From Chrysochromulina parva (Eukaryota; Haptophyta; Prymnesiales; Chrysochromulinaceae), in NCBI GenBank assembly GCA_002887195.1, contig PJAB01001052.1:1-17802 (forward strand): a DNA stretch of 17,802 bases, written 5' to 3'. Numbering within the stretch: position 1 is the first letter of the stretch; the number at the start of each line of letters is the position of its first letter. Below the pieces are notes generated by a model, which searched no databases, had not been told where the DNA came from, and saw only the letters and a list, made by a program, of their open reading frames with translations. Below are positions 4,208 through 16,331 of this stretch, piece after piece. Both the position numbers and the translations under genes were made by a program.

Positions 4208-7200
4208 ATGAACACAACTCAGCGCCGCCGTCCCCAGGCCATCTTTACGGACGACCTGGTGCAGCCTCTCGAAGGTGAGCGTGCACGCCTCCTGGGACCA
4301 CCCGATGCTGCCTTCACTCCATCAACGCTCCCCTCCCCTCTCCCCTCTGCACGCAGGCACCATTGACGACATCGGCATCGTCGAGCGCGCGCCCAACAGC
4401 AGTGACGAGGAGAGTGGGCCGGACGACGACGACGACATCGACGACGACGACGACATCGACGACGACGAGGAGCGGCCACGCCGCAAGCTTCCGCCGGGCG
4501 CGGTCAAGGTGCGCTGGAGCCGTCGTGAGGACGTGCGCACCGAGTACACGGAGAACCTGCGGCTCGTCGACCGCGTCTTCCTGCTTGGCGACATCGTTGC
4601 GAGCGCAGCCGACCAGATCGGGCAGACGGGCGTCGTGGTCGGCATGCGCATGTTCTGCGACGTGCGGCGCTCGGACGGCACCATCCTGCGCCGTGTGCCG
4701 ACGCCGGTGCTGCAGCCGCTGGCGGTGTGCCGGCCGGGCGCGCTCATCGTGCACACCGTGTGCCACTGGCTCGGGCGCATCGACGAGGTCTACGACAACG
4801 TGCACCTCGCATTCGACGACGGCAGCGCATGCAAGGTGATGCGCACTGGGGCCAACACCCTCAACGTGCACTCGCCCACGATGGACGAGCAGACGTGGTT
4901 CTGGCCAGGGATGCGCGTCTCGGCGACGCGCGAGGTGCTCCGGCGCGCCAAGTGGACCAAGGGCTCGTACCGCAGCGGCTACGTCGGCCAGGAGGCCACT
5001 GTGACACGCGTGCAGGCGGCGCAGGCCCTAGTACGCTGGCTCGCGGCGGCGCCCGTGGATGGGCACGATCGGCTCGAGCACGCGTCCATCCAGCCGCCAC
5101 CTGACATTCAACGCCCCTCGCACCTGCTCGAGCTCCAGCACCACCACGCGCGCACGTGCTGGCGACTGGGCGAGCACGCCACCATCGCACCGGACGAGGT
5201 AGAGAGGCTGCTGCTCAAGGCGGCCACCGCCGCCGGAGCTGAGGAGGACAATCAGCAGAATGGCAGCACCGGTGCGGCCCCCGCGGGCGCCGCCGCCGCC
5301 ACCGGCTCAGGCGGCGGCAAGAAGCAACGCAAGGAGAAGAAGCGCGTTCAAGCCATCGAGAGTTGCGTCGAGGTGCTCGCATGCCATACGCGGGTGGACG
5401 TGCTCTGGCAGGACGGCACGCGCGACACGGACGGTGAGGCGACGGTGTACGCGCCCGCCAAGCACGTCGACGGCTACTACGAGTTCTGGCCGCAGGACTT
5501 AGTCGTGGGCAAGTCACCCACGGCCGCGCCCGCGGACCGACGCGGCGAGATGCCACCAGTGGGTGTGGTCGAGAGCGTCAACCATGAGCAGCGTATCTGC
5601 GTCGTGACGTGGCGCGGCGCTGAGGCGGGCGCGGATGGCACGCCCGGGCACGCCGCCAAGCGCGAGGTCGTGCCCGTCTACGAACTCTCGCCCCATCCCG
5701 ACTTTAGCTTCAAAGTGGGAGATGTGGTGCTGCGGCTTGGGCGCGAGGCGGCGTCGACGCTGCATAGCGCCGCGGCCGAAGGCAACGGACCGACCGCCGC
5801 CGGCGCGAGCGGCGGGGCCGGCGCCGACGCTAGCGGCGCCGGCCCCGCCGATGACGTCGATGACGTCGATAACGACGACGACGTCGGTGCCGGCGGCGCG
5901 GTCGGTGCCGGCGACGACGAGGTCGGTGCCGGCGGCGCCGACTTGGAGCTCGCGCGGAGCAGCCTGCGCTACATCGGCGAGGTGGTGACGGTGGGCACAT
6001 TGCTCACTGTGCGTTGGATGGACGGTACGCTCGGCACGGTGAAGCCGGAGGAGGCGTACCTCGTCAACACCGAAGAGGAGGATGAGCAGCCGCCCGAGGA
6101 GGACGAGGGCTCGCATGATGACGAGGGGGACCCTGCCTATGCGTACGACGATGACGAAGCTTCGGAAGCGATCGAAGCCGATCGCGTGCCGGTGGCTCGT
6201 CGAGCTCGCGCGCGTGGTTCTGACGACGAAGGGGATGGCGACTCCTCGGGCTGGGAAACGGTCGACGATGACGCGGACGAGGATGACGTCGTCGACGACG
6301 AGACAGGCGAGGAGGACGAGGGAGGTGTCCCTGCGGCCGCTGCCGCCACGGCGCGCAGCGCGCCAGCGGCCGGCGACAGGGCGGAGCCCATGCAGGTCAC
6401 GGCCGCGGCGCCCAGCGACGCCGAGGACGCCTCCTCTGGGAGATCGAACCCAAGGGACGCGGAGCCTGCTGCGGAGGGGGCCGCGGCAGAGGGCACCGGC
6501 GCCGAGGCGGCGCCAGGCCCGATCTCGACTGTGATCTCGACTGCGCATACACAGGGGTTGTACTACTCGGAGGCGGACGAAGAGGGCGAGGAGTCTTTTG
6601 CTTCGGCCGAGGACGAGGAGGAGCCGGAGCAAGATGCCCAGGCTGCCGAGGCGGAGGACGCGCGCGAGCGCGCCGCCCGCGCCGCCGTGCAGGCGATGGT
6701 CACGGCCGAGGCGGCGGCCGCCCGGAGTGCTGAGGAGCGCGCCGCCATCGCGGCGTACGCCGAGCACGACCATTTTTGGGTTGACGAATCCGAGGCGCCG
6801 TGGAGCTGGCACCACTACTACCACCCGCCGGGCGCCTCCGCCTCGTCCTCCTCCTCCGCCGCCGCCGCGCCGCCGCCGCCGCTGGTCCTGCCGCCCAAGT
6901 TTGCCAAGACGGCACAGAAGCAGTGGCGGCTGCTGCAGGCGGGGCTGCCCGAGGGCATTTACGTGGTCGCTTGCTCGGGGCGAGTGGACCTGATGAGCGT
7001 GCTCATCACCGGCCCGCCGGGCACGCCATACCAGGACGCCGTCTTCATCTTCGACGTGCAGCTGCCCCCCGAGTTTCCCCAGCAGCCCCCCCTCGTGCAC
7101 TATCTCTCGCACGGGCAGCGCATCAACCCGAACTTGTACGAGAACGGCAAGGTTTGCCTCTCGCTCCTCGGAACTTGGACGGGGCATCAATCGTGTGAGC

Positions 7201-12967: not shown

Positions 12968-15900
12968 TTAGGCAGTCAACTCGTGCTCGCTCCCTTGCAA
13001 CTTGGGAGGCGCATGCAACTTGGCGTTGTACCGTACCAGGCGTTGGACAAGTTGCACGTCGGTGCCTCCATGCACCCCCGTCGATGCAGCCCCTTCTTGC
13101 TCGCTCCCTTGCATCTGGGGAGGCCCTTGCACCTTGGACCACGCCTTTGCTCCCGGCGTTGTGCGCTGGCACGTGTTGGAGAGCGATGCGTGCGAGGGCG
13201 CGAGGGGGGTATCTCGTGAAGCGAGCAGTCTACCTACTGGAAGCGTCGCGGCGCCGTTGCGTTTCGCGACACTGCTGAGTGGCGGATAGCAGCGGTTCGA
13301 GATTCGAGCGATCTCTGCGCCCTCGGCCGCTGCGGATCCCGCCACGAGCCATTCCTGATCTGGCTCCTCCTCCTCCGCAGCCTCGCGGCTGAACCACGCG
13401 GGGATGGCGGCATCATCCCACTCGAGCCGGGGCGGACGTGATGGCGCGCTCTCGCCCTCAAGCACGCGCGACCTCCCATCGAGCCCCTGGTTCGCGCTGT
13501 GAAAGACTTCGAGCGTGGCGCGCTTACGCCAGAGGATGTTCGCCCGCGCGATCGCGACCTCTGTGGTCACGTCGGGCAGTAGCGCGCTGATCACGTAGTG
13601 GACGCCGAGCATGAGGTGTTCACAGACGAAGAGGAAGAACACCTGATTGTCAGCGTTGATCTCGAAGATGCCGAAGACGCTGATCGGCAATGCCCCGCTG
13701 AAGACCGTCGAGGTGAACCCAATGAGGCCCATATTGGTGAAGATGCTCACTATGCCCATCACGGCAAGTACCTTGTGCCACGAGCCAATGTCCTGAGCGC
13801 CCGCGTAGCGCGGCCGCTGCGTATTGCGCAGCAGCTTGTACGCGTCAGTTCGGATCTCAGCCATGAACGAAAAGTAGCATACGACGGCCGCGATGGGGAA
13901 GGCGGGCGCAAAGAGCGTCACATACCTGTGGGGAGTGGGCGCGCCATGGTGAGCACTTGCATGCGAGAGCGGGCGCAAAGAGCGTCACTTACCCAAGCTG
14001 CGTCATGAGGAACAGGTACTCTGCAAAGCACCCTTCGTGTGGCTCGAGCATCGCCTGTTCCTCGTACGGGCTCCGCGGCTTGAAGTTGCCGCCGTGCCTG
14101 ATGAGAGACCTGCCTAATTTGGACTCTTCGGAGAGCCGTCGCATGAATGCCATCAGCCGAGGCAGCACATACTCGCTCACCTTGGCGAGGAGCTGCGTGC
14201 CGAAGGACGAGCGAGGGGATTATCAGCGGCCATCATCAGAGGCCCTCATCAGAGGCCAACATCAGCGGCCATCATCAGAGGCCATCAGCAGAGGCCATCA
14301 GCAGCGGCCATCACACCTGCGAGAAGATGACGAGAGAGGAGAGCAGTGTAGACAGCTCCGCCATGCAGAACGGGTTGAAGCCGCCATGCGTCCCCTTGAT
14401 ATACTCGGCCGTATAGTCAAAGTGGCTCGCGTCGTGGCAGTACTCAGTCATCCCGGGCAGTAGACTGACCTGTGAGGCCTCGAGGAATGCTATGTAGAAG
14501 AGCGTGGCGTAACTGTTGACGAAATAGAAGCACGAGGTCTTGAGCACGAGAGCGTCCTCGTACGCCGTCACAGTGCGGTAGTTTTCCCAATTGTTCAGCT
14601 TGACGGCGAGCAGCCCGTACAAGTAGTTGGTGAAGACGAGCCACGCAGAGTACAGCGCGGAGCCCATGCAGGAGCCCAGAGTCACCGCGTACCTGTGGGG
14701 AGTGGGCGCGCCATGGTGAGCACTTGCATGCGAGAGCGCTGAAGGCATGCATGAGCCCAGTGTCCGCGCGTACGTACCAGGACGCGAGCTTCACCTTCAC
14801 CCCCCTCCCCTCGAGCTGGAGAGCGGGGATGGAAGAAGCGTCCGAGTCGAAGTCAAGCTCGGCCACCCCGAGGAGGATAGCGTGCGTGCTCGACAGGGAC
14901 ATCATCAGGACGGAGCGGTACGCGAACAGCGTGGCCACGCCAATCATCACCATCGTCACAAAGGGCACGATCACGAGATACGAGAAGAGCGTGCGCCGTT
15001 GCCGCTGCCCAGCCGAAAAGCGCCGAATCACCGGTGCTGCCGCACTGAGACGGTCATGCTCATCGACCTCGATGAAGTCCTCGTCGCGCGAGTAGAAGCC
15101 GCGGGCGAGCTCGCCGCGGAATTGCGGACGCACGTGCTCCGTCGCCTCAAAGTCCTGACGAGGCAGCCAATCAGGCGGGGCACGTGAGAGGGCATGCAAG
15201 CTGGTCGGATCGCGCGCGTCCACGACCTCCATGTTCCAGGGGAAGGCATTCAGTGGAAATCAGAGCCAAATCAGAGCCAATCAGTGGCAATCGGTGGCAA
15301 TCAGTGCCAACAGTGCCACTCGGTGGCAATCCATGGCATCCGTGGCACCCATGGCAATCAGTGGCAATCAGTGGTCATCAGCGTCCACGTACCTCGACGT
15401 TCCAGCGGAAGGCGAGCTGCGCCTCCTCGCGCCTCCACGTCTTGGCAAACCAAGGGGTCCACACCATGATGAACACGGAGTACGCCGGCGCTAAAGGGTT
15501 GTCGACGGTGCCGTACCAAAAGCTGCCGAGGACGACGAAAAGCCCGACGAGCCCGGGCAAAAGCAGGCTGCGAGTGAGGTGCTGCAGGAACGCAAAGTAC
15601 AGCGCGAGCCGCTCACCAAAGTAGTCGCGGATCTGATCAAGAGGTTGGTCGGGCCACCAGCTGCACTGAGCATGTAGCCACTGCTCCGCGAGAGCACCGC
15701 TTCCGATGGTGGGCTCGTGCACGGGTACAACTGCCGTGAGTACCCCGCGCTCGATCTCGAGGCTCAGGTCGAGGTCGCACCCGCCCTCAGAGAGCCCGAG
15801 CTCGAGGGCGGAGATGATGAGCCGCTGACGCTCAAGCGAGCTGAACAAGGTGCCACTTGCCGCCCGCGCGAAGAGCTTCTGGGTTTCACGTGTGTAGTCC

Positions 15901-16331
15901 GTGTACCCACCGGTTTCGAGGCGCTTTTCCATGCTCGTCCGCTCCGCAAACTCCTCGAGCAGCCTGTCGGGCGCCGCGATCTTGAGCAGTACCTTCTCGC
16001 CACTTCTTGAGACCTCGCGTGAGAGCTCCAGGCCGATGAAGCGCATGCGCGAGACGATGGTGCGCCTCCGCAATGCAACCTCTGTCTTCTCAATGAGCTG
16101 GCTTCGCAGTCCGCTGCCAGGGTTATCATTGGGATGCACGAGGATGATGTCGTACTCATACTGTTGCCGGCTGGAGGACGCCTCGTCGATCGGCTTGGGC
16201 AGCACTCCGCTCGCAGACGGCCCATCGGACCGTGGACCATCGGCCGGCAGCAGGGGCCGCAAGCTCCCAGGCGGGCCGATGCAGACACCACGCTGGCCAG
16301 CGGACGGCACCGGGCGTCGGGTCCGCGGCAT
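12968..16331 (-). CDS. Anoctamin/TMEM16 family membrane protein
   Basis: Five exons: 16331-15393, 15226-14778, 14692-14317, 14192-13993 and 13925-12968 (stop TAA). The GT-AG junctions have phases 0, 2, 0 and 2 and give 973 residues. The N-terminus has a cytosolic dimerisation-type domain (58-225) and the signature LDQIRDYFGE (231-240). The first membrane segments lie at about 245-295, another at 394-416, then WENYRT and FVNSYATLFYIAF in exon 3, and MTQLGYVTLFAPAFP across the exon 4/5 junction. By family knowledge these proteins are Ca2+-gated chloride channels or lipid scramblases. By alignment from memory to mouse TMEM16A, the acidic residues E595, E646, E678 and D682 are kept, but the expected second acid of the TM7 pair is F649 and an Asn is Ala591. 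The C-terminal tail (about 760-973) is unconserved and ends in a duplicated 40-bp segment. Channel versus scramblase cannot be decided. Confidence 0.88.
12984..13137. repeat. Dispersed 40-bp direct repeat in the anoctamin C-terminal coding tail
   Basis: 12984-13023 and 13098-13137 match at 35 of 40 positions without gaps and encode KVQGPPQMQGSEQE and KLHAPPKLQGSEHE on the minus strand. Differences include both silent and amino-acid-changing sites. Confidence 0.85.
13902..13992 (-). repeat. 24-bp direct duplication flanking the cassette of anoctamin intron 4
   Basis: 13969-13992 (first 24 nt of the intron) and 13902-13925 (first 24 nt of exon 5) match at 23 of 24 positions. In sense both begin with GTA, then (A/T)GTGACGC. 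The copies lie exactly on either side of the 43-bp cassette. The single difference makes the intronic copy GTAAGT, a consensus splice donor, where the exonic copy has GTATGT. Confidence 0.95.
13926..13968 (-). mobile_element. Introner-like cassette, copy 1 (anoctamin intron 4)
   Basis: 43 bp forming the 3' part of the 67-bp intron 13992-13926. In sense it begins tctcgcatgcaag and ends cactccccacag, supplying the acceptor. It is identical over 43/43 bases to 14693-14735. Flanking direct duplications and the precise exon position suggest an insertion that created the intron. It has no coding capacity, so any mobilising machinery would be elsewhere. Confidence 0.75.
14221..14312. repeat. Minisatellite in anoctamin intron 3
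   Basis: Units of 10-13 bp built on catcagaggc and catcagcggc fill the 124-bp intron 14316-14193. In sense they read gcctctgatg and gccgctgatg. Confidence 0.9.
14655..14773 (-). repeat. 38-bp diverged direct duplication flanking the cassette of anoctamin intron 2
   Basis: 14736-14773 (near the 5' end of the intron) and 14655-14692 (start of exon 3) align without gaps over 38 positions with 30 matches, including gagcccag and the outer tac. They abut the second 43-bp cassette on both sides. An extra GTAC (14777-14774) follows on the donor side, so the frame-consistent donor is TG|GTACGT at 14777, 4 bp outside the duplicated block. Confidence 0.85.
14693..14735 (-). mobile_element. Introner-like cassette, copy 2 (anoctamin intron 2)
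   Basis: Identical to copy 1 at 13926-13968. It forms the 3' part of the 85-bp intron 14777-14693 and supplies the acceptor (ccccacag). Both copies sit in phase 2 introns, in the same orientation relative to transcription, next to targets beginning GTA. Confidence 0.75.
15216..15413. repeat. 32/33-bp duplication spanning both splice sites of anoctamin intron 1
   Basis: 15381-15413 (end of exon 1 plus donor) and 15216-15247 (acceptor plus start of exon 2) match at 29 of 32 positions with one 1-nt indel. Both copies contain GAG|GT in sense; splicing joins the exon half of one to the exon half of the other. Confidence 0.9.
15249..15384. repeat. Minisatellite in anoctamin intron 1
   Basis: Units of about 10 bp (agtggcaatc, agagccaatc, with variants such as catggcatcc) fill most of the 166-bp intron 15392-15227. 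In sense they read gattgccact and gattggctct. Confidence 0.9.

Follow-up and report, generated by a model that had tools for sequence, protein, structure and literature searches.

The window, by which we mean the whole stretch of DNA analysed (17,802 nucleotides of contig PJAB01001052.1 from the haptophyte Chrysochromulina parva), carries an anoctamin gene with four introns on its minus strand. Introns 2 and 4 each contain a copy of the same short element. The layout is as follows.

12968-16331, minus strand: anoctamin gene, 949 amino acids in frame (PF04547, E 8.7e-99), with exons 16331-15393, 15154-14778, 14692-14317, 14192-13993 and 13925-12968.
15155-15392, minus strand: intron 1, a tandem-repeat intron with a core-like stretch close to its 3' end; missing in the paralogue.
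14693-14777, minus strand: intron 2, 85 nt; absent from the paralogue, with homologues ungapped at the junction.
14735-14773, minus strand: target duplication of intron 2, upstream copy, 31/39 identical to 14654-14692; the gene-model donor, 14777, is 4 nt upstream of this copy.
14708-14731, minus strand: 24-nt core, copy 2, with one mismatch to the consensus.
14693-14707, minus strand: tail of intron 2, ending in CACAG, the same as the tail of intron 4.
14654-14692, minus strand: target duplication of intron 2, downstream exon copy.
14193-14316, minus strand: intron 3, composed of 10-13 bp tandem repeats; missing in the paralogue.
13926-13992, minus strand: intron 4, 67 nt, consisting of an exon copy with the donor GTAAGT, then TCTC, the core and a tail with CACAG; clean empty site in the paralogue, homologues ungapped.
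13969-13993, minus strand: target duplication of intron 4, upstream copy and source of the donor, 24/25 identical to 13902-13926.
13941-13964, minus strand: 24-nt core, copy 1, with one mismatch to the consensus; holds the candidate branch point CTCAC.
13926-13940, minus strand: pyrimidine-rich tail of intron 4, whose terminal CACAG is the 3' splice site.
13902-13926, minus strand: target duplication of intron 4, downstream copy, which is the original exon.

The PF04547 profile scan was done on the 929-residue product of an early intron 1 model, and the corrected intron 1 gives the 949 residues listed. The acceptor first chosen for intron 1 was discarded, as it added 24 residues that are present in none of six homologues.

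The initial annotation reported that 13926-13968 and 14693-14735 are identical, that each stretch stops at the acceptor of an anoctamin intron (4 and 2, respectively), and that the exons around them are unrelated. The identity is real and somewhat longer, as 13923-13971 matches 14690-14738 at 49 of 49 positions, and in the gene model both introns run from GT to CACAG. The other half of each intron is a second copy of that intron's own downstream exon. Since the two target duplications are different sequences, segmental duplication of an exon was rejected as the origin of the pair. The two copies of the core in the window, counted at up to 3 mismatches, compare with none in 200 shuffles.

A paralogue on contig C463 is without all four anoctamin introns. 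For intron 4 it offers a clean empty site. Intron 2 is missing from it as well, but the exon stretch just upstream is unaligned, so that the empty site at intron 2 is inexact. The alignment with ANO6 is ungapped across the intron 4 junction, and six database homologues, of which P0001 by eye appears to be the product of the paralogue itself and P0003 and P0004 are almost one protein, are ungapped at junctions 2 and 4.

The 10-13 bp repeats of introns 1 and 3 are like TGATGGCCTC, and similar arrays occur at positions 1-121, 374-442 and 1655-1783 of the window and elsewhere in the genome. Given these arrays and the absence of introns 1 and 3 from the paralogue, there may be a second intron-making process. 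Near its 3' end, at about 15190-15215 on the minus strand, intron 1 holds CTTGCATGCCCTCTCACGTGCCCCGCC, by eye possibly a decayed core.

The element of introns 2 and 4 has many relatives. In sense orientation its core is the 24-mer GCATGCAAGTGCTCACCACGGCGC, of which the 45-Mb genome contains 1,791 copies when up to 3 mismatches are allowed (896 on one strand, 895 on the other); the 17-mer core GCATGCAAGTGCTCACC, also read in the sense direction, has 641 exact genomic copies. The reversed 17-mer and 24-mer patterns have no match genome-wide. Two samples were examined. The first consists of 181 distinct copies read from fetched loci, a set biased towards the window's cassette, of which 178 have at least 85 nt on both sides; in these 178, chosen by their similarity to the core, 20 of the 24 core positions are conserved at 94% or more. 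The second, in contig order, consists of 60 regions from the first 100 listed places of the 17-mer, other than those already sampled, and includes 66 exact copies.

The copies occur in two forms, as follows. A type II insert consists of the core, a pyrimidine tract and CACAG, and the GT donor comes from the duplicated start of the exon, so that splicing would restore the original coding sequence. A direct repeat is found in the flanks of 107 of the 178 copies, against 23 of 961 mismatched pairs, and of 45 of the 66 contig-order copies, against 6 of 1,500 in the null. Splice sites in register with the repeat, a GT or GC donor plus a YAG acceptor, are found in 62 of the 178 copies (C573, with TAG, being a doubtful case), and a further 45 have the repeat but no register splice sites. 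A scored repeat is missing from 71 of the 178 and from 21 of the 66, which counts against the explanation that we favor below. Measured from the splice site, the duplication in the 62 register copies extends over 9-47 nt, with a median of 28; the introns are 56-100 nt long (median 78), and their lengths modulo 3 are distributed 23/20/19, that is, with no bias towards multiples of three. The contig-order sample has 25 of 66 copies of type II in register, with duplications of 9-42 nt (median 27) and lengths modulo 3 of 9, 8 and 8.

A tract of at least 70% pyrimidine that ends in YAG within 45 nt after the core follows 127 of the 178 copies; the antisense control gives 5 of 178, and starts drawn at random from the upstream flank give 90 of 1,780. 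The genome search thus returns what had been anticipated for an introner, many copies ending at 3' splice sites. The core also contains CTCAC, a candidate branch point; its median distance to the AG is 28 nt, as would fit a branch point. Similar introns are therefore present at many unrelated positions, and in the anoctamin gene the C463 paralogue (clean at intron 4 only) and the ungapped homologues point to insertion into exons with empty sites; both are features by which introners are recognized. From the proteins, the intronless paralogue and the reading frames, we infer splicing. The proposal of an introner is supported on these grounds, as a family with a 24-nt core. The further suggestion of a tiny 43-bp element carrying only an acceptor holds for the acceptor, which is indeed carried, but the invariant part is 24 nt, a branch point is likely carried as well, and the donor is derived from a long target duplication.

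Three type II inserts (L013, L019 and L032, the last at C55 34624) appear directly after the acceptor of an existing intron, so that AG/GT opens the duplicated exon piece; such an arrangement could permit stepwise (recursive) splicing. In L020 (C1118) and L028 (C21), the upstream exon copy starts with GTGCTC, followed by the core sequence ACCAYGGCGC and then by exon again. From the sequence, this structure looks like a switch at the common GTGCTC.

The type I form is the mirror image. It consists of GTACGTTGATTGCCACTGATGACCTGCCTT plus the core and carries its own donor (GTACGT...), with the acceptor CAG coming from the duplication. The type I sequence GTACGTTGATTGCCACTGATGACC has 178 occurrences at up to 3 mismatches and none when reversed. 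The sample comprised 20 regions, partly chosen for a known following core, and contained 23 places, 21 of them with a core within 60 nt. A repeat adjoins the donor in 18 of the 23 at a score of at least 18 (control 9 of 500 pairs) and in 11 of the 23 at a score of at least 28 (control 2 of 500). Among these 11, L118 has a match to element sequence and was left out of the duplications; the remaining 10 strong cases have duplications of 17-40 nt. Of the 18, 15 have CAG ahead of the donor. The duplication is fixed at its right end in type I and at its left end in type II, in each case as splicing requires. That the fixed ends are opposite indicates that they reflect selection, with the cutting itself loose.

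The strumpellin gene on contig C650 offers a second example of type II introns within a recognizable gene. With its two type II introns removed, the product matches PF10266 over residues 2-542 (profile 56-597, E 4.9e-199); against solved-structure sequences the query has no match. The database protein P0131 (99% identity at 92% query coverage) passes through both junctions exactly, and both RNA and an intron-free allele are compatible with its origin. P0132 and P0142 have open frames through the second insert, with the duplication on both sides of the core. In a third strumpellin intron (L016, C650 19982-20060), the duplication and core form tandem units, 2 here and 3 in P0132, a variation in copy number.

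Some copies with a repeat have no register splice sites, and in these the unit length is mostly a multiple of three. In the contig-order sample, the unit length is divisible by three in 15 of 20 repeat-bearing non-register copies; in the first sample, this holds for 17 of 22 repeat-bearing copies without a scored tail (p 3.1e-5). Tail-less inserts of 24-26 nt with duplications of 24-32 nt are found at C191 7160 and C2149 8443 (24 nt each), at L123 (26 nt) and in one copy of L160 (25 nt). It is likely that these tail-less copies are exonic, in-frame insertions into coding sequence, and in several of the likely exonic copies the insert stops at GCGC, with no CACAG tail. The class also holds type I introns and intronic tandem units (C650 19982 and L135), so that the number of true exonic copies is not fixed. 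Two candidates were rejected as exonic: C650 19982 is inside the strumpellin intron, and the upstream copy at L135 looked intronic, since it belongs to a tandem pair in which its partner unit does have a tail. Codon bias, tried as a guide to the coding strand, gave 44 to 18 in calibration and proved too noisy.

The joints between duplication and insert are informative. In 17 copies there is no filler, and the duplication abuts the core. In 13 of these the exon goes on with G, the base with which the core begins (background 0.324, p 2.5e-4), and in 10 it goes on with GC (p 1.4e-5). This excess suggests a few bases of homology at the 5' joint. Twenty-nine copies have duplications at least 97% identical, and 24 of them, the copies having been chosen by core similarity, have 0-1 mismatch in the core; the tails are all different in 28 of 28 readable young copies. 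A simple model in which one master is copied does not predict variable tails with a nearly constant core, and this also counts against the explanation that we favor.

Neighboring copies were compared as well. Copies within 3 kb of each other are on the same strand in 57 of 59 pairs. Near-identical tails (distance at most 0.11) occur in 9 of the 59 near pairs, a count from which the same-site-pair filter also excluded the window pair, compared with 1.4% of 7,908 far pairs. Over all near and far pairs, the likeness of tails does not differ significantly (p 0.09), and local origin as a general rule was rejected, as tails are common to only a subset of neighbors. In C2150, a young copy has the filler CATCA, and the duplicated flank of its neighbor ends in these same letters, which implies that copies can extend back into the source's own DNA by a varying distance. 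In the window pair, the two inserts have the same tail and the same TCTC/CTC before the core, and the target duplication is more diverged at intron 2, which argues that the intron 2 insert is the older. Since the invariant part of the family is only 24 nt and the tail varies between copies, the 43-bp identity points to a local and recent relation of the two. Intron 4 was probably copied from the neighboring intron 2.

We consider it probable, judging from the sequences, that this is an introner family around a 24-nt core, whose members are inserted at a staggered break or pair of nicks that is patched with a short copy of a family intron. The first step would be a staggered break, or a pair of nicks, some 28 nt wide. 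A partial, short copy of an existing family intron would be joined in, with a few bases of homology at the 5' junction, and fill-in would produce the long target duplication. Some new copies would be derived from a neighboring copy within one gene, which is probably how the window pair arose. Selection would then retain those inserts that can be spliced or are in frame. The invariant core may combine a copying signal with the branch-point region. A search of the genome for enzymes covered three protein families, RVT_1, GIY-YIG and TnpB/Fanzor-type. It gave five RVT_1 matches, just over the cut-off, four GIY-YIG matches and no TnpB/Fanzor-type match. None of these three families yields an enzyme linked to the introner family, and this too counts against patched insertion as we propose it.

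It is tempting to go further and propose that the 24-26 nt unit is itself mobile. The unit is too short for inverted repeats or a promoter; it would enter by a staggered cut of about 28 nt, a route that the accounts compared below do not give for introners, and would be tamed as an acceptor-carrying intron, a donor-carrying intron or an in-frame protein segment. We regard this extension as plausible but somewhat short of probable.

On an RNA route, reverse transcription would copy an intron-derived RNA directly into the target at a nick (target-primed reverse transcription), leaving long variable duplications and variable 5' ends, as LINEs and SINEs do. The duplications here are long and variable, the 5' end is variable, the CATCA filler of the young C2150 copy speaks for this route, and the genome has the five RVT_1 matches. 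Type II displays the fixed 3' end, 5' truncation and variable duplication of LINEs and SINEs. Type I and the likely exonic copies, however, break the rule of a fixed 3' end: type I is fixed at its 5' end, and several likely exonic inserts stop at GCGC. The fixed end therefore follows the need of splicing and not a priming site, and the RVT_1 matches are few and marginal. We find the RNA route doubtful, though it is the likeliest of the rival mechanisms.

For Micromonas and Aureococcus it has been proposed that introners are MITE-like DNA transposons on which a transposase acts in trans; such movement seems unlikely here. Like published introners, the elements are short, non-autonomous and numerous, with a target duplication and a borrowed splice site. 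However, inverted repeats at the insert ends are no commoner than in controls: 62 type II inserts (35-74 nt, median 48) have a median score of 6, equal to that of mismatched pairs, and shuffles of the type I consensus have a median of 8, the score of the consensus itself. The terminal inverted repeats and the constant 3-9 bp duplication of MITE-type introners are thus not seen; the duplication varies from 9 to 47 nt here, and both ends are variable. Matches of an 861-nt query to the cassette are 41-63 bp long in the 40 of 195 candidates that were scored, and no longer relative is found among these.

A reading without mobility, in which pieces of exon were duplicated in tandem and the core arose as a branch-point motif through convergence or later homogenization, is very improbable. 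Tandem duplication of exon pieces containing AGGT is a known route of intron gain (PMC3443670). The 24-nt core, however, is far longer than a branch-point consensus, and the reversed pattern has no matches. The core is also found in the repeat-flanked inserts without register splice sites, with their excess of unit lengths divisible by three, which contradicts this reading unless those inserts are intronic. The model proposed for fungal introner-like elements, in which an excised intron is reverse-spliced, is scarcely credible here: the type II insert does have a branch-point-like motif and does end at a 3' splice site, but the 5' half of type II introns is a local exon copy and not that of another intron, target duplications would be unexpected and the flank repeats contradict this model, the likely exonic copies are without splice sites, and the fungal traits of a whole copied intron and no target duplication are not found.

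The published introners compared here have duplications of 3-9 bp and often inverted repeats, whereas in this family the duplications are long and variable and inverted repeats are undetected. A 2025 paper reportedly deals with horizontally transferred introners. Gozashti 2022 (PMC9860276) gives 3-9 bp duplications for some earlier introner families and inverted repeats in 72 of 177 families; in some families the element supplies one splice site while the other is co-opted, among them a Chrysochromulina family whose duplications are 4 bp long. The introners of Symbiodinium microadriaticum (their Fig. 2B) are like type II, as the insert carries the acceptor and the donor comes from the duplicated target; they have 4-bp duplications and inverted repeats, whereas here the duplications are variable, at 9-47 nt, no inverted repeats are detected and only the 3' half of the intron is shared. 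Family 5 of Chrysochromulina sp. TARA_PON_109_MAG_00232 (their Fig. 2C) is like type I, with no inverted repeats, a carried 5' splice site and a borrowed 3' one, but has a 4-bp duplication in contrast to the 17-40 nt of the 10 strong type I cases; this comparison is by description, within the same genus name. Similarity near both splice boundaries, the search criterion in that study, is lacking here: type II introns share the 3' half only, the 5' half being local exon.

The IE-C introners of Micromonas are short, and their branch-point motif is conserved (PMC3879977); the cited part of that account describes no duplication, and its authors favor reverse splicing or recombination, whereas target duplications are present here. 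Amoebophrya introners have 3-5 nt repeats (PMC7789003). New introns of Daphnia, attributed to staggered-break repair, have 4-12 bp repeats (PMC4202315), and the cited account describes no single common core, in contrast to the one core in about 1,800 copies here. Host repair by Pol alpha-primase/CST at breaks with 3' overhangs yields short tandem duplications, as here, but the cited portion of that work describes no recurrent insert or introns (PMC8355091). Introners in mirusviruses (PMC12768974) have, in the part cited, no bearing on the 24-nt core family. The titles and abstracts retrieved from the open-licence literature yielded no report of the 24-nt core or of long introner duplications. 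What differs from described introners, then, is the long variable duplication, the two mirror forms on one core and the likely in-frame copies.

As to the host, the ELP3 protein of the window is almost identical to a Chrysochromulina tobinii protein (100%, rounded, over 76% of the query, with two differences by eye), as fits C. tobinii or a very near relative. The C. tobinii genome is 59 Mb with an average of one intron per gene (PMC4580454). A scan of a viral collection, from which records near the window's genome were possibly excluded, found the core in one contig (L039, IMGVR_UViG_3300027760_000958). At 4400-4554, the end of that contig, the core is followed by a C/T tract and CACAG, and the remainder is by eye bacterial or phage-like. 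This contig is probably an assembly chimera.

The origin of new introns is a long-standing question. The mirror use of one core suggests that the fixed ends of introners may reflect selection for splicing rather than the cutting enzyme. With many young insertions, a duplication that records each event and likely neighbor donors, the copying route of this family can be read from the sequence. A search requiring likeness at the two splice sites would tend to overlook families of this kind, and intron gain of this type may therefore be under-counted.
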